In this document: positions 9,439 to 45,390 of the stretch, piece by piece | How the letters are laid out: each line of letters opens with the position of its first letter | How positions within the stretch are numbered: the first letter of the stretch is position 1 | From: Trichodesmium erythraeum GBRTRLIN201 | GTDB taxonomy: Bacteria > Cyanobacteriota > Cyanobacteriia > Cyanobacteriales > Microcoleaceae | Direction of reading: 5' to 3' | DNA length: 45,390 nucleotides | NCBI GenBank assembly: GCA_018457135.1 | Contig: JAGGDU010000237.1 | Coordinates: forward strand, 24,039 to 69,428 | Position numbers and translations under genes: made by a program | The notes under the pieces: generated by a model | Databases searched by the model: none | Seen by the model: only the letters and a program-made list of their open reading frames with translations | What the model was told of the DNA's origin: nothing

Positions 9439-10167
9439 ATGGCAGGAGAGAACTCCTCTACAGAAACAAAAAATCAAGAAATAAATGAGAAGACTCCAGA
9501 GGTTCAAACTTTTGAAACTAATGTAGAATTCGAGTCATCTCAAAAGGTTGAAAGTGATACAGAACTTTCTGCAGATAATGCCTCTATAGATACAGATATT
9601 CAGAGCACTGAATCAACCTCAAAAGAAAAAGATCAGGTCTTATTGAAAGAGGCTTATGAATTATTACAAACTCAGTTAGAAACTACCAAGTATCAACTAG
9701 AAGAAAAAGAGAGTCAATACAAAAGGCTAGGCGCAGACTTTGACAACTTCCGTAAACGGACACAAAAAGAAAAGGAAGACTTGGATACACAAGTCAAGTG
9801 TTCTACAATCATGGAACTATTACCAGTAATTGACAACTTTGAGCGTGCTCGCTCCCATATTAAACCTGCAAATGATGGAGAAATGGCTATCCATAAAAGC
9901 TATCAGAGCGTCTATAAGCAAATGGTAGACTCTTTGAAACGCTTAGGAGTTTCTGTTATGCGCCCTGAAGGTCAAGAATTTGATCCTAATCTACATGAGG
10001 CAGTAATGCGAGAGGCAACCGCAGAACATCCAGAAGGAACCGTAATAGAAGAATTGGTACGAGGTTATATTCTAGGTGAGCGTGTACTCCGACACGCTAT
10101 GGTTAAAGTAGCAACAGCACCAGATACAGATGCTGAGACCGAAAATCAAACAGATCCAGAAAGTTGA
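9439..10167 (+). CDS. grpE: GrpE, nucleotide exchange factor for DnaK
   Basis: This 242-aa co-chaperone releases ADP from DnaK. Residues 1-70 are a disordered, acidic, Ser/Thr/Glu-rich extension. Residues 75-130 form the long coiled-coil dimerisation helix, including [14 protein letters not shown] near 105-118. The C-terminal beta domain holds the family signature [12 protein letters not shown] and [16 protein letters not shown]. An AGGAG ribosome binding site at 9426-9430, eight bases before the ATG, supports the start. grpE is followed on the same strand by dnaK, but 864 bp away, a wide gap for normally clustered genes. Confidence 0.96.
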
Positions 10168-38706: not shown

Positions 38707-39636
38707 TCAGCTCTCACTATTCCGATGGTAGTTTTGATACTTAATTCTAGCACCAGCCCATAGTAGTTTTTCTCTGAGAGTCTGAAAAAATGAATAATTT
38801 TCCCGCAGAATAATAAACTTAGCTTGACAATTTGCCATACGCACATTTACTCTTTTTCCTGGCCATATAGAAGTACATAGAACTCCATCTGCCCAGAGTT
38901 TAGTACTTAGATCGTGATCATGTAAAGGCCAAATACTAACTACACAACCAGGAGGAAGTACAATAGGGCGGCTCGAAAGACTTAGAGGGCAAATTGGTGT
39001 TATGGAAATGGAAGCCATGCCAGAGTGCATAATTGGTCCATTAGCAGAGGCAGTATAACAAGTGGAGCCTGTGGGACTTGCAACAATTAATCCATCCCCT
39101 TGATATTGGTCTACTATCTCACCATCAATTTCTAGTTCTAAAATAGAAGTAGGCATTCTGTCAGCAGAAGCAGGTTTAACGCAAAACTCATTTAAGGCTA
39201 AAAAGTTATCGCTGACTGGTTTGAGGTTATAGCGATCGCCATCAAATACTGCTGACTGCAACATCATTCTTAGTTGTAATGCATAGCGGTCTTCAAATAA
39301 CCTATCCCATACTTTTTCTGTATCCTGAAAATCTTCAAAATTATGGGTTAAAAAGCCTAAATGTCCTCCTACATTAACTGCTAAGATAGGAATTCCATCC
39401 GGTGCTAAACTTCTAGCTGCAGCTAATATTGTACCATCTCCTCCTAAGACTACTGCCAAATCAATTTTATTATTGCTAGAAGCGAGAAAAACTGGATAAG
39501 GATTATCTTGTGGCCCACTTGGGCCCATTAAGACTCGACATCCTCTCTTTTCCAACTCTCTCGCAGATTGTTCTGCATAACGACGGCTTATATCATCTCT
39601 AGCCTTATGAGCAATAATTACTCGTTTAAGATCCAT
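38707..39636 (-). CDS. nadK: NAD kinase
   Basis: This 309-aa enzyme phosphorylates NAD to NADP. The diagnostic GGDGT is at 65-69 in AVVLGGDGTILAAARSL, with the substrate motif FLALNEFCVKPASADRM and the SPTGSTCYTASANGPIMHSG block intact. Length matches cyanobacterial forms. Cyanobacteria usually carry two NAD kinases; I cannot say which this is. It shares strand and direction with the ATP-grasp/SMP-30 gene 421 bp upstream, but the large gap with a strong hairpin argues against one transcript. Confidence 0.95.
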   Translation of the reverse strand: MDLKRVIIAHKARDDISRRYAEQSARELEKRGCRVLMGPSGPQDNPYPVFLASSNNKIDLAVVLGGDGTILAAARSLAPDGIPILAVNVGGHLGFLTHNFEDFQDTEKVWDRLFEDRYALQLRMMLQSAVFDGDRYNLKPVSDNFLALNEFCVKPASADRMPTSILELEIDGEIVDQYQGDGLIVASPTGSTCYTASANGPIMHSGMASISITPICPLSLSSRPIVLPPGCVVSIWPLHDHDLSTKLWADGVLCTSIWPGKRVNVRMANCQAKFIILRENYSFFQTLREKLLWAGARIKYQNYHRNSES

Positions 39637-39801: not shown

Positions 39802-40057
39802 CTGGCCTGTAAATTCGTTTAAAGTCTCCAAATACCTGAGGGTGACTTACCAAAAATTCTTGTTGGTTTTTATTTGTACCTTCAGGGGGTGAGCTGCTCA
39901 AAAAATCATGACAGTTTCCTAATTTCAGCTCTCAACTTCTGAGAGTTTTCTATAACCTCTTCTTTTTTAGGGTATTCATGAAACCAGGGGGATGGATAAC
40001 GGGTCTTAATTCAAGTCTCGTACAAATTAAGAATTTTGAACTTGAAGTTAGAAACTT

Positions 40058-42280
40058 TTATAAATCAATTTCAAAAAGGTATCCTTGTTTTGACTCTTTC
40101 AATTCACTTGCATACCAGGGTGAAAGGCTCTTTCCTCCGAGCCAAGAAACTACAGATGAGCAGGCAAACAATTTGTTGGCTGCTTTAGCATTGGGATTAC
40201 ATTCAGAATCAACAACGCTCACACTAGTAATGTTCATTACAGGTAAAGTCACCTCTCTCAGCCTTGCTTCTGATCGCGGGTGAACACAGATGATTTTACC
40301 ACCAAACCAAAATGTGAGCCAAAGATAACCAGATCTATCTACAGCTAGTCCATCAAGTACTCCTTCATTTTCATTAGCAACAATAAATTTGTGATGGTAC
40401 TGAACATCTTTTAGGGTTGCTTCCATTTTAGATGATTTGAGGGTGAAGACATGGATCACCCGTTCGAGACTGTCTACAACATAAAGCGATCGCCCATCTG
40501 GTGACGTTCCCATGCTATTAGCATAACCAAACCCTTTAAAAACTTCTTGAACTTGCCCCTGGGAATTACAGCATAGCAGTGCTCCTTCTTTTCCAATTCC
40601 TGTGGTGTCTTCATTTATTGTATTAAACCATATGCATCCGGTTTTGTCAATAATTACATCATTACAAACTAATTTTTGACCTTGATATTCTTGAACAATG
40701 GGCACTAGCTCTTGGGTGTTGAGGTTAAACTCCATCAACCCTAACTCCCCAGATAATAATACGGTTCCTGTTGCAGATACTGCAATGCCATAAAATGCTG
40801 CAGGTAATGAAAACCTTTGTATATTGCGGGTTGTCAAGCACAGTTGAATGAGCTGAAAATTGCCATAGTCTAGACAAAGTAGTTGATTATTTCTGGAGTC
40901 ATAGCAGAGTCCTTCACCTCCCTGGAGAAGAAGGTCTGGTACTACGGTAATTTGATAGGCTGGTGAGCGTCGTTCTAGTAGTAGTGCATTCCGTAGGTGC
41001 TCTCCATAAAATTTTAGGGGAAACTGGCTGGTCCCAAAAAGGTTGAGCTCTGCTAGTGGAGTTGAATGATAGGAGCTATTTTTGATTTGCTCTTCTGGTT
41101 TGCAGTTAAAGGTAATGAGCTGTGAGCTGCCTAGGGTTTGTTGAGCCAGACTAAAATCAAGTAGTGTTGAGGCGAGGCCACTTTTACGAGTTGAAAGATA
41201 TAGGCGAATACTTGTGGGTATTTGTTGTTGTAATGGCTGTTTAGGAATTTGGGGGCAAATTCCCTGAGCTAATTTTAGGGCAGCTAATGGTAAGTTGAAG
41301 TTAATACTTTGTTTATATAGAAAGCTGAATGTTGCACTCATACGCGCATTCATTTCAATTAAGATGGGAGGCGTTTGCCCTTGAAGCCAAAATTCAGCGC
41401 TGAAAAAGCTGTTATCTAAACCGCTATTTTGAATAAAATTAGTGACTCGCTCATAAATAGCTTTTTTTTGGAGTTCACTGACTTGAGAGGGAAAAATATA
41501 ACAGTCTACGGATCCATTTGGCGCTTCTACAGTATCTACTAAACCCAGAAAATTAATCTCTCCTTTATAAACGAAGCCATCACAGGTTAAGGGTTCACCA
41601 GAAATTAGTTCTTCAACTAAAAGTGGAACTTGAGAAGTTACAGCTAAGGGGTATTTTGTAGCATCAACAAATTCTTGGAAGAAAGTTGAATACATTTGCC
41701 AATAAGGTTGATAAGCTGTCGCTAGTTCTGTACATACCTGTTCTAATTGCTCAGGGGTATCAACCGGAGCACAAAACATTCCGTAACTAGAACAAACTGG
41801 TTTTATAAATACTGGAAAAGTTAGGGTGTTGAGAGTGGGTTGATCAATGGAAACCTTTTTTTCATTTTCCAGTTGCACAAAACTGTAGCCGGGGGGGTAT
41901 GAGTCAATTTCACGACCATAAAATTTATGAAAACACTGTAATACACTTTCCAGGGAAGGACCAAAAAGATTGAGGTTTTGACAAACTACAGCGGCTATTA
42001 AGTTGCTAATATCAAAGCTGTAGTAAACAACTGTAATATGATGGCTTTGGGCATAAGCGATCGCGTCTTGGCAAAAGGCCACTAAGTTGACTGGACCTTT
42101 GAGTGATGGTGGTATTGTTTTTAGTGATGAATATTCTAAACAATGAAAGCAATATTCTGAAAAATCAGGGCTAGAAAATAACTGCTTTTCATTTTCAGAT
42201 GGTAATAATGCTAATACTGGAATTTTTTCATTGGCTGAATTAATTTCCTGAATTACAGTTACTGTTGCTACTTTTAACAT
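40058..42280 (-). CDS. ATP-grasp ligase fused to SMP-30/gluconolactonase-like beta-propeller
   Basis: This 740-aa protein fuses two enzyme-like halves. Residues 60-345 are an ATP-grasp domain: lysine in FPVFIKPVCSSYGMF (K160), a VEELISGEPLTCDGFV block (222-237) and metal ligands E296, E309 and N311 (FSAEFWLQG, LIEMNARMS). Such enzymes join a carboxylate to an amine or thiol through an acyl phosphate. Residues 445-740 are an SMP-30/LRE-type propeller. Its metal positions appear as E456 (QGGEGLCYD), N540 (VCNDVIIDKTG), N588 (YANSMGTSPDG) and D643 (LDGLAVDRSGYLWL). No signal peptide, so it is probably cytoplasmic. The two activities suggest a natural-product or cell-wall tailoring step (inference). 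It stands alone; the upstream gap holds a 14-bp minisatellite. Confidence 0.8.
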   Translation of the reverse strand: MLKVATVTVIQEINSANEKIPVLALLPSENEKQLFSSPDFSEYCFHCLEYSSLKTIPPSLKGPVNLVAFCQDAIAYAQSHHITVVYYSFDISNLIAAVVCQNLNLFGPSLESVLQCFHKFYGREIDSYPPGYSFVQLENEKKVSIDQPTLNTLTFPVFIKPVCSSYGMFCAPVDTPEQLEQVCTELATAYQPYWQMYSTFFQEFVDATKYPLAVTSQVPLLVEELISGEPLTCDGFVYKGEINFLGLVDTVEAPNGSVDCYIFPSQVSELQKKAIYERVTNFIQNSGLDNSFFSAEFWLQGQTPPILIEMNARMSATFSFLYKQSINFNLPLAALKLAQGICPQIPKQPLQQQIPTSIRLYLSTRKSGLASTLLDFSLAQQTLGSSQLITFNCKPEEQIKNSSYHSTPLAELNLFGTSQFPLKFYGEHLRNALLLERRSPAYQITVVPDLLLQGGEGLCYDSRNNQLLCLDYGNFQLIQLCLTTRNIQRFSLPAAFYGIAVSATGTVLLSGELGLMEFNLNTQELVPIVQEYQGQKLVCNDVIIDKTGCIWFNTINEDTTGIGKEGALLCCNSQGQVQEVFKGFGYANSMGTSPDGRSLYVVDSLERVIHVFTLKSSKMEATLKDVQYHHKFIVANENEGVLDGLAVDRSGYLWLTFWFGGKIICVHPRSEARLREVTLPVMNITSVSVVDSECNPNAKAANKLFACSSVVSWLGGKSLSPWYASELKESKQGYLFEIDL

Positions 42281-42332
42281 TAACTTATAGTAAACAATTT
42301 TGTACTGATCATATTGAATTTTATCAGGAGTT

Positions 42333-42600
42333 GTTAGGTCTTAGGCGGTAGGTTTTAGATGGCAGGTTTTAAACGGCAGGTTTTAGGCGGCAGGTTTTAG
42401 GTGGCAGGTTTTAAACGGTAGGTTTTAGGAGGCGGGTTTTAGGAGGCAGGTTTTAGGCGGCAGGTTTTAGGCGGCAGGTTTTAGATGGCAGGTTTTGGGC
42501 GGCAGGTTTTAGATGGCAGGTTTTAGATGGCAGGTTTTAGATGGCAGGTTTTGGGCGGCAGGTTTTAGATGGCAGGTTTTAGGTGGTAGGTAGGTTTTAC
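42333..42600. repeat. 14-bp minisatellite, about 18 tandem copies
   Basis: From 42347 to 42584, 17 units of exactly 14 bp follow one another, consensus GGCAGGTTTTAGRY. The last four bases vary (AGAT, AGGC, AGGT, AAAC, AGGA, GGGC). A degenerate unit precedes (42333-42346) and a partial one follows (42585-42600). The array lies just upstream of the ATP-grasp/SMP-30 gene (ATG at 42280) on the minus strand. The period is not a multiple of three, and the array is not translated in any convincing ORF. Confidence 0.95.
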
Positions 42601-42747: not shown

Positions 42748-45390
42748 TTAACTTTCAACAATGTTAATACTCACATTATAGTCAGTCCGACCACTTCCAA
42801 TGGAGAAAACTTTCAAATAATAAACACCCTTTTCCAGAGTAGTTTGGATTTTCTCTATGGCAATATCTTCTTCATTTGACTGATTTAAAAAACTCTCATC
42901 TTCCCCATATAATTCAATTCCCAAATTTTGAATAAAGCTATCTACAAAAATAGTCACTAAACCTTCTTTTTCTACCTCAAAACGAAAATAATCTTCTGTA
43001 TTCCGATCTACTGGCCCGACGGGAAACCCAATATTATCTCTGCTAGAGGTTTGCTTTAACTCCAGAACTCCCATATCAACAGCATCTTTGAAAACCTCCG
43101 GCACTGGTTTTTCGTTATCTCGAATAATACCGACTGCTTTTGCATCTGCATCTGATAACTTAGCATTTTTCGCACCACTGAGTTTGACCTGAAATTTCTC
43201 ATTTTTTTCATAAACAGTATCTCCTAAAATGGGAACATTCAGAGTCTTTTTCGTCTCCCCTGGTTTAAATGTCAGGACTCCCTTTTTCTTTTGAAAATCT
43301 TCTCCCGCCTTAGCGCTACCATTAATAGTCTCATAATTAACCTTCACTGTTTGACTGCTACTATTATCTAGCTTGACTTCAAACTTCATATTTTTCTCAC
43401 CCCTGTTGGCTTCAGTCACCCTAGCATCGCCGATGGATATTTGCGGAGAAATGTCGTTATCAATAATTCTGCCTACTGCCTTTTCATCTGACAACTTACC
43501 ATTTTTGGCATCACTGAGTTTGACCTGAAAGTTCTCGTTATTTTCATCAACCAGATCTCCCAAGATAGGAACATTTACAGTCTTTTTCCTCTCCCCTGGT
43601 TTAAAAGTCAGGACTCCCTTTTTCTTTTGAAAATCTTCTCCCGCCTTAGCGCTACCATTAATAGTCTCATAATTAACCTTCACTGTTTGAGCACTACTAT
43701 TATCTAACGTGACCTCAAACTTCATATTTTTCTCACCCCTATTTGCTTCCGTCACTTTCGCATCACTGATAGATATTTGAGGCGGCTGATCATTATCCTG
43801 AATTCTGCCTACTGCCTGGCTGTCTGACAACTCCGCATTTTTGGCACGGCTGAGTTTGACCTGAAACTGCTCTGTATTTTCAACCAGAGTATCTCCTAAT
43901 ATGGGAATATTGACAGTCTTTTTCGTCTCCCCCGGCTTGAATGTCACCACTCCCTTTTGGCTTTGAAAATCTTTTCCTGACTTCGCGGTGCCATCTACTG
44001 AAGCATAATTTACTTTGACTGTTTGGTCGCTGGGGTTGTTCAACCTGACTGCAAACTCCATATTTTTCTTACCCCTATTTGCTTCGGTCATTTTGGCATC
44101 ACCAATAGATATTTTCGGAAGTTCGTCGTTATCAAGAATTATGGCTGCACCATATTGTTTTCTGGGGTCTGCTGGCAACTCTGCATTTTGGGCTCTGGTG
44201 AGTTTGACTTCAAATAATTCGGTATTTTCATAAAAAGTATCTCCCAAAATGGAAATATTGATGCTCTTTTTGGTTTCCCCTGGTTTGAATGTCACGACTC
44301 CACTTTTCTTTTGATAGTCTTTTCCTGATTTCGCGTTGCCATCTACTGTGGTGTAATTTACTTTGACTGTTTGACTGCTGGGGTTGTTGAGTCTGACTTC
44401 AAATTCCATATTTTTCTGACCTCTGTTGCCTTCAACAGTTTTGGCATCGCTGATGGATATTTGAGAAACTTGGTCGTTATCAATAATTTTGCCGACTGCT
44501 GTGTTGTCTGAAAAATTTCCATTTTCGGCACCGCTGAGTTTGACTTGAAACTGTTCGTTATTTTCATCAACCCTATCTCCGAAAATGGGAATGCTCACTA
44601 TTTTTTTGGTCTGCCCCGGTTGGAATGTCAGGACTCCCCTTTTATTTTGAAAATCTTTTCCTGACTTAGCGCTGCCCTCTTGGGTTCCATAATTTACTTT
44701 GACTGTTTTCCCGCTGGGGTTGTTTAATTTGACTTCAAATTCCATGTTTTTCTGACCTCGGTTTCCTTCCGTAATTTTGGCATCGCCGATGGATATTTGG
44801 GGAACTGGGTCGTTATCAACGATGGTGCCTGTAGCTCTCCCATCTTTGATGTTGGCATTTTGGGGGCGGCTCAGAGCGACTCGGAATTTTTCCTGGGGTT
44901 CGTCTCGGTTATCTCCCAAGATGGGAACTGTGATGTTTTTGTTCGTTTCTCCTGGTCGGAAGGTGAGGGTGCCTTTGGTGAGTTTGTAGTCTTGGTTGAC
45001 TTTGGCGGTTTGGTTGGCTGTGGTGTAGTTGACTTTGACTGTGGTGGTTGTGGGGTTGTCTAGGGTGACGGTGAATTTGGCGGTTTTATTTGTGTTGCCT
45101 TCGGTGAGCTTGGTGTCGGAGATGGTGATGTTGGGGATGATGGTTATGGGGGTTTTGTTGATGAGGATGGATACGTTGTCATCCCAATAGTTCGCCACAG
45201 CCAGATCAGGAATGCCGTCTCCATTTAAATCTTCTGCTGCTACTGACGCAGGTCCGTCTCCCACCGGAAAATTAGTAGCTGAACCAAAACTACCGTCACC
45301 TTTTCCTGATAACACTGATACGTTGTCATCGCCACCGTTCGCCACAGCCAGATCAGGAATGCCATCTCCATTAAAATCTCCTACTGCTAC
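42748..45390 (-). CDS. FG-GAP / Calx-beta repeat / PPC-domain surface protein (5' end outside window)
   Basis: The frame is open to the window edge, so the N-terminus is missing; 880 codons are visible. In order: two FG-GAP-type repeats, each with a calcium-loop-like DLNGDGIPDLAVAN; six Calx-beta repeats of about 110 residues, each ISIGDAKxTE, VKVNYxT, LTFKPGETKK, ILGD and DND; and a C-terminal bacterial pre-peptidase domain (YFRFEVEKEGLVTIFVDSF, YYLKVFSIG). Such proteins are calcium-binding, exported and adhesive; in filamentous cyanobacteria they are often very large. Repeats 5 and 6 are almost identical at DNA level with a 336-bp offset. The secretion signal is presumably on the missing end or the unseen C-terminal partner. 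It ends at a TAA at 42748. Confidence 0.9.
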   Translation of the reverse strand, partial: VAVGDFNGDGIPDLAVANGGDDNVSVLSGKGDGSFGSATNFPVGDGPASVAAEDLNGDGIPDLAVANYWDDNVSILINKTPITIIPNITISDTKLTEGNTNKTAKFTVTLDNPTTTTVKVNYTTANQTAKVNQDYKLTKGTLTFRPGETNKNITVPILGDNRDEPQEKFRVALSRPQNANIKDGRATGTIVDNDPVPQISIGDAKITEGNRGQKNMEFEVKLNNPSGKTVKVNYGTQEGSAKSGKDFQNKRGVLTFQPGQTKKIVSIPIFGDRVDENNEQFQVKLSGAENGNFSDNTAVGKIIDNDQVSQISISDAKTVEGNRGQKNMEFEVRLNNPSSQTVKVNYTTVDGNAKSGKDYQKKSGVVTFKPGETKKSINISILGDTFYENTELFEVKLTRAQNAELPADPRKQYGAAIILDNDELPKISIGDAKMTEANRGKKNMEFAVRLNNPSDQTVKVNYASVDGTAKSGKDFQSQKGVVTFKPGETKKTVNIPILGDTLVENTEQFQVKLSRAKNAELSDSQAVGRIQDNDQPPQISISDAKVTEANRGEKNMKFEVTLDNSSAQTVKVNYETINGSAKAGEDFQKKKGVLTFKPGERKKTVNVPILGDLVDENNENFQVKLSDAKNGKLSDEKAVGRIIDNDISPQISIGDARVTEANRGEKNMKFEVKLDNSSSQTVKVNYETINGSAKAGEDFQKKKGVLTFKPGETKKTLNVPILGDTVYEKNEKFQVKLSGAKNAKLSDADAKAVGIIRDNEKPVPEVFKDAVDMGVLELKQTSSRDNIGFPVGPVDRNTEDYFRFEVEKEGLVTIFVDSFIQNLGIELYGEDESFLNQSNEEDIAIEKIQTTLEKGVYYLKVFSIGSGRTDYNVSINIVES

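Follow-up and report, generated by a model that had tools for sequence, protein, structure and literature searches.

Analysis of a 45,390 nt stretch of the Trichodesmium erythraeum GBRTRLIN201 genome (the whole stretch is hereafter called the window) revealed a gene in which an ATP-grasp ligase and an SMP-30/gluconolactonase (SGL) propeller are joined in one protein chain. New here is also its genomic setting, as in five genomes, one of them holding a remnant, the fusion lies behind a SurE gene with a SAM methyltransferase gene upstream.

The fusion gene and its occurrence

The gene is a 740 aa ORF with an ATG start on the minus strand and occupies exactly 40058-42280 (ORF listing). The fusion that a preliminary description had proposed at this position was confirmed by the ORF, by Pfam and by copies in other genomes. 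Within the protein, the ATP-grasp part extends over residues ~17-437 and the propeller over ~440-740. Pfam places ATP-grasp_4 (PF13535) at residues 154-316 with 44.1 bits (curated cut-off 27) and SGL (PF08450) at residues 455-687 with 126.6 bits (curated cut-off 26.3), and no NCBIfam model came near its cut-off for the fusion protein. The features of the window that concern us are the following:

40058..42280, minus strand: fused ATP-grasp / SGL propeller gene, 740 aa (ORF, Pfam, fusion kept in other genomes)
40973..42280, minus strand: ATP-grasp half, residues 1-436, L-amino-acid-ligase-like (PF13535, invariant residues, structure match)
40061..40972, minus strand: SGL propeller half, residues 437-740 (PF08450, residue table, structure match)
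38707..39636, minus strand: NAD kinase gene, downstream of the fusion (NF002731, 490 bits)
42748..45345, minus strand: Calx-beta / FG-GAP repeat protein gene, upstream of the fusion, open at the contig end (Pfam)
42308..42326, minus strand: short promoter-like stretch upstream of the fusion gene (likeness by eye)

The window ends together with its contig, 3.1 kb upstream of the fusion gene. Its NAD kinase and Calx-beta neighbours show no sign of a functional link to the fusion, and reading a function from them was dropped, since a NAD kinase and a Calx-beta repeat protein suggest no pathway. Concerning the upstream region, a tandem repeat of ~14 bp is present at 42335-42599 (by eye and self-comparison), and a looser stretch similar to it comes after SurE on contig C151 of the same genome (L103:1-360). 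The fusion copies of Richelia and of genome G476 have a 32 nt stretch in common (31/32 matching), which the window stretch at 42308..42326 resembles by eye alone. On the opposite strand, a 101-codon ORF (39978-40283, plus) overlaps the 3' end of the fusion gene and is probably spurious.

Full-length or near full-length copies with 68-75% identity are carried by four other cyanobacterial genomes, and a shortened copy by a fifth. A scan of genome contigs that used no peptide patterns other than those of the window protein, and which distant fusions outside the cyanobacteria may escape, returned two relatives, one being the copy of Okeania hirsuta (68% identity over residues 2-738). The other, the copy of Richelia sp. 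UBA3308 (75% identity), runs over residues 1-670 to the end of its contig, while residues 668-739 were found at the end of another one, and the copy thus lies in two contig-end pieces. Because Okeania hirsuta, Richelia sp. UBA3308, G476 and G487 carry the same fusion, an artefact, a chance join or a misassembly is ruled out. The shortened copy, in G552, keeps a single frame through residues 1-185 and 289-739; the gap removes about 104 residues from the ligase half, E223 among them. In G536 only a remnant is left, the first 82 codons (match over residues 1-84).

The fusion protein is rare among cyanobacteria. It was found whole in 2/61 genomes of the family (the window genome and Okeania), in 4/388 sampled genomes of the order (the same two, G476 and G487) and, among 386 genomes sampled from the phylum, in the window genome alone; two fusion candidates were scored per genome in the order and phylum searches, where absences are less sure than presences. 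The other seven genomes of the Richelia genus gave no match at E <= 1e-20. Viral contigs gave five pattern matches, none of them a relative, and among 262 matching plasmid records none covers 80% of the query in one place.

Conservation and structure of the two halves

Both halves are under purifying selection, as judged from pairwise dN/dS (Nei-Gojobori) in six pairs of copies. The ligase half gave 0.19-0.26 in every pair and the propeller 0.20-0.30 in five; the sixth propeller pair, G476 against G487, gave 0.65 with few changes. Where the window gene is one of the two copies compared (four pairs), each half lies at 0.20-0.30. Residues were compared in alignments that hold ten stand-alone ATP-grasp proteins each (A2 and A3) and, in A2, 13 stand-alone propellers, L013 and L014 being omitted by choice. 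In A3, L053 is exchanged for L062 and the G552 copy is absent; the ATP-grasp copy of G004 (L005, two stops within the match) was kept out of the alignments. L051 and L052 duplicate L020 and L022, eight more propeller matches have no locus, and the Richelia row (L016) ends in residues that lie past the homology, at the contig end, and carry no meaning.

All eight residues named in the preliminary description (K160, E296, E309, N311, E456, N540, N588 and D643) are present. In the ligase half, K119, K160, E223, E296, E309, N311 and R313 are identical in 15/15 rows of A3; we take the lysines to bind ATP and the Glu/Glu/Asn residues to bind Mg, roles that we assume from the ATP-grasp superfamily. 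Membership of that superfamily is indicated both by the domain model and by the conserved K119, K160, E296, E309 and N311. A search of the PDB with the single sequence gave weak matches to BL00235 (E = 0.012) and BacD (E = 0.7), and a profile of the 15 rows brought 4dim (E = 2.9e-16) and then BL00235 (E = 1.6e-13) to the top. Modelled alone (pLDDT 86.7), the ligase half matches the L-amino acid ligase BL00235 (3vot) with Z = 31.5 (rmsd 3.2, 378 residues) and BacD/YwfE (3vmm, 3wnz, 3wo1) with Z = 28.8-29.6. Of the entries without an amino acid ligase label, 4dim ranks first (Z = 27.8, i.e., 3.7 below 3vot), and RizA, also an L-amino acid ligase, comes below it (Z = 26.5), all within Foldseek's first 1000 chains, to which the comparisons were limited and below which further families may rank. 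By its overall fold the modelled half would therefore be an L-amino acid ligase of the BacD/BL00235 type, a class defined in the excerpted part of PMC6920838 by ATP-dependent dipeptide formation from unprotected amino acids. BL00235 and BacD/YwfE, the closest folds to residues 17-437, are alike to it in the lysines and in the Glu/Glu/Asn pattern; it differs from them in being 15-16% identical, in reaching no NCBIfam cut-off and in being fused to a propeller.

Stand-alone cyanobacterial ATP-grasp proteins (~425 aa; e.g., L030, L031, L059) are 26-28% identical to the ligase half and keep the same conserved residues, but lack the propeller and have neighbours other than those of the fusion. Those of L030 and L031 are likewise located among biosynthesis-type genes. 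A recurring cyanobacterial gene set surrounds the stand-alone relatives in L029, L030, L059, L060 and L061, with PLP decarboxylase, HD-domain, ATP-grasp, TauD/gamma-butyrobetaine-hydroxylase-like, alanine-dehydrogenase-like and methyltransferase genes (Pfam on L030 only). Mycosporine MysC, butirosin BtrJ/BtrK and carnosine synthase may also be considered as readings of the fusion.

Concerning the propeller, the full-length model (pLDDT 85.3, pTM 0.83) matches mouse and human SMP30/GNL with Z = 34.0-34.2 (rmsd 2.3, 277-278 residues), and the best matches of a sequence search of the PDB are SMP-30-type proteins. In SMP30, as described in an excerpt of PMC3551927, the metal ligands are Glu18, Asn154 and Asp204, and the sugar is held by Arg101 and Asn103, joined in mouse by Glu121. 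The PF08450 match together with E456, N588, D643 and N540, which correspond to the Glu18, Asn154, Asp204 and Asn103 of that excerpt, places the propeller in the SMP-30/gluconolactonase/LRE family, and these four metal-site residues are kept in 6/6 fusions. The substrate-binding Arg101 of an SMP30-type sugar lactonase is replaced, by alignment, by V538; the position is Val in 6/6 fusions against Arg in 13/13 stand-alone cyanobacterial relatives. Position 558 differs among the fusions, with D in four and N in two. Since V538 stands in place of Arg101, gluconolactonase is a poor name for the protein and sugar-lactone opening an unlikely job. The fused propeller thus belongs to the wider family and retains the metal site, but its pocket is not that of a gluconolactonase. 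A mechanism of lactone ring closure by SMP30 is proposed in the same excerpt (PMC3551927), so closing would be possible for the fused propeller as well as opening. SMP30/regucalcin and its relatives xylonolactonase, Drp35 and DFPase have the propeller fold and the metal-site residues in common with the fusion, which differs from SMP30 in the Val at the Arg101 position, in 20-22% identity and in the ligase ahead in one chain.

The database and structure checks that the preliminary description called for thus placed both halves in known folds, with PF13535 and PF08450 above their cut-offs, and, as far as fold and conserved residues tell, the ATP and metal sites on which it depended appear to be formed in the models. 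Its reading of the propeller as a lactonase or sensor held in part: the metal site is kept, whereas sugar-lactone opening, with V538 at the Arg101 position, is not the likely job. A fold match alone is no proof of function for either half.

Genes around the fusion and the possible pterin link

Listing the carriers of the fusion with their neighbours, as had been proposed, revealed a linkage to SurE and a SAM methyltransferase in five genomes. Specifically, the fusion immediately follows a SurE nucleotidase gene, with the methyltransferase gene upstream, in Okeania (L017), G476 (L055), G487 (L056) and G552 (L057), and the remnant of G536 (L058) is placed likewise. Nothing lies between methyltransferase and SurE in G476 and G487, several ORFs do so in G552, and in Okeania the interval holds a KS-AT-linker/acyltransferase protein; there, SurE ends at 9977 and overlaps with the start of the fusion ORF when this is read from its listed GTG at 9932. 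The window genome has methyltransferase and SurE together on contig C151, apart from the fusion. The Richelia fusion is not beside a methyltransferase/SurE pair either, and that genome has distant methyltransferase relatives (42% and 34%) and a SurE match of 45% at best. The 3' end of the Richelia fusion (L125:37-14198) is convergent to a run of tryptophan-type (by eye), type I phosphodiesterase and 3-dehydroquinate synthase genes (Pfam), which we take to recall scytonemin clusters.

At E <= 1e-40 the methyltransferase was found in 16/388 genomes of the order, three of which are only 36-41% identical. All six genomes with the fusion or its remnant lie within these 16 (hypergeometric 1.8e-9, kinship not corrected), a figure that overstates the case because the genomes are related. 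Seven loci carry methyltransferase and SurE without the fusion (L104, L106, L107, L108, L109, L110, L111). The methyltransferase match of G552 ends at residue 328 of 391 and that of G536 is read in two ORFs; as both fusion and methyltransferase are incomplete there, the gene set is decaying in these two genomes. A 3' fragment of SurE (residues 178-230) is located directly behind the G552 fusion (L057:10947-11105) and a shorter one (residues 205-230) behind SurE on C151 of the window genome (L103:18-95), while the remaining 11 SurE-bearing loci of that search have none. Such fragments are possible scars and would fit a fusion gene that has been gained and lost at this site after SurE.

Additionally, G476 and G487 carry a dihydropteroate-synthase-like gene and a TmpR-type reductase gene ahead of the methyltransferase, and FolK (HPPK) just beyond the fusion. 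The dihydropteroate-synthase-like gene adjoins the methyltransferase in L055, L056, L104, L106, L109, L112 and L119; it is present in 34/388 genomes overall, in 12/16 with the methyltransferase and in 5/6 with the fusion or remnant. A Nudix gene occurs with HPPK in L104, L106, L109, L112 and L119 (outside L055, L056 and L104, HPPK was identified by similarity to these), FolB in L106 and L119, and PTPS/QueD in L106 and L111. All eight tested reductases beside a dihydropteroate-synthase-like gene exceed the TmpR cut-off (NF012208, 325) with 356-385 bits, the L055 protein at 356.2 bits and the seven of L104, L106, L111, L112, L118 (two) and L119 at 365-385. The dihydropteroate-synthase-like protein of L055 passes the Pterin_bind cut-off (PF00809) and, with 112 bits, stays below the 162.6 of the TIGR01496 equivalog; the two of L118 gave no model match at E <= 1e-60.

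In the window genome, two TmpR-type reductase and two dihydropteroate-synthase-like genes alternate on contig C191 (L118:297-4028), and an ordinary FolP-level match (31%) is found on another contig. For Okeania the sole match is an ordinary FolP-level one (29%), and likewise for G005, where methyltransferase and SurE are both present. The pterin link to the fusion is suggestive and not general, because Okeania has the fusion, the methyltransferase and SurE but only the FolP-level match. A literature search for such a folate-like cyanobacterial cluster returned nothing, and one for TmpR, with the terms used, no paper.

Possible function of the fusion protein

The explanation that we favor, at roughly even confidence, is that the fusion is a bifunctional (late) tailoring enzyme of a specialised (secondary), possibly pterin-derived, pathway. 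We infer both activities, the order of the steps and the class of substrate. The ligase half, of the L-amino-acid-ligase type, would phosphorylate a carboxylate with ATP (acyl phosphate) and join an amine to it to give an amide; the metal-dependent propeller, of the SMP-30/DFPase/paraoxonase kind, would act on that molecule too, either ahead of the ligation or following it, by opening or closing a lactone or hydrolysing an ester. The SAM methyltransferase and the SurE-type phosphatase would prepare or finish the substrate, which in most carriers may come from the pterin pathway through the dihydropteroate-synthase-like protein and the TmpR-type reductase. Several observations count against a bifunctional tailoring enzyme, namely the partial loss of the ligase half and the decay in G552, the decay in G536, the separation of the fusion from SurE in Richelia and in the window genome, the dN/dS of 0.65 for the G476/G487 propeller and the rank of RizA below 4dim.

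The closest competitor differs from this explanation in the class of substrate only. That the pathway is not pterin-derived, with methyltransferase, SurE and fusion forming a module of their own for, e.g., a nucleotide- or acyl-derived product, is a serious possibility, if one short of even. The FolP-level matches of Okeania and G005 agree with it, and an acyl-derived product is hinted at by the KS-AT-linker/acyltransferase protein that Okeania has in the interval from methyltransferase to SurE; the high share of methyltransferase genomes with the dihydropteroate-synthase-like gene, relative to the order as a whole, and the adjacency of the two genes at seven loci argue against it. A narrower pterin version seems to us speculative and rather doubtful. 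Here an amino acid would be ligated to a methylated pterin- or folate-like metabolite, whose ring would be opened or closed by the single-chain ligase/lactonase, and the fusion would belong to a cyanobacterial set that parallels the folate pathway toward a different product, made up of the dihydropteroate-synthase-like protein, the TmpR-type reductase, the Nudix, FolK and FolB neighbours, and SurE as the phosphatase.

The remaining alternatives bear on the two halves themselves. If the ATP-grasp half were the sole enzyme and the propeller a metal-binding sensor, scaffold or substrate holder without turnover, the loss of the Arg kept by all stand-alone relatives, the variation at position 558 and a pocket that is not that of a sugar lactonase would be readily explained. 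However, the fusions keep all four metal-site residues, and DFPase, Drp35 and paraoxonase also lack equivalents of Arg101 and Glu121, yet are described as related enzymes in the excerpt of PMC3551927. Moreover, in G552 the propeller is whole and it is the ligase half that lost residues, whereas an accessory propeller would lead one to expect the opposite. The SurE and methyltransferase link also points to biosynthesis rather than sensing, which weakens the ligase with a metal sensor that the preliminary description had offered as its alternative, and we consider a propeller without turnover unlikely. It is equally the G552 gene, with part of the ligase half lost and the frame still open, that would suit two enzymes with unrelated substrates or steps that merely share a chain. 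We regard such a pairing as quite improbable, with the halves still in one chain in each of the five copies of full or near full length and the junction residues 424-438 identical in 6/6 aligned copies. Finally, the internal loss in G552 and the 82 codons left in G536 could speak for a decaying or accidental join, functionless as a fusion; against five full-length or near full-length copies and dN/dS values mostly of 0.2-0.3 in both halves, this is very hard to sustain.

Both halves belong to common families, and a description of the two in one chain was not found in the open-access literature, where our searches likewise returned no characterised protein of this layout, in agreement with the preliminary description. 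The fusion itself hints at a substrate common to both reactions, and its link to the methyltransferase and SurE makes it part of a compact gene set that lends itself to testing. Should the pterin connection prove true, this set would represent a folate-like side pathway of filamentous cyanobacteria.
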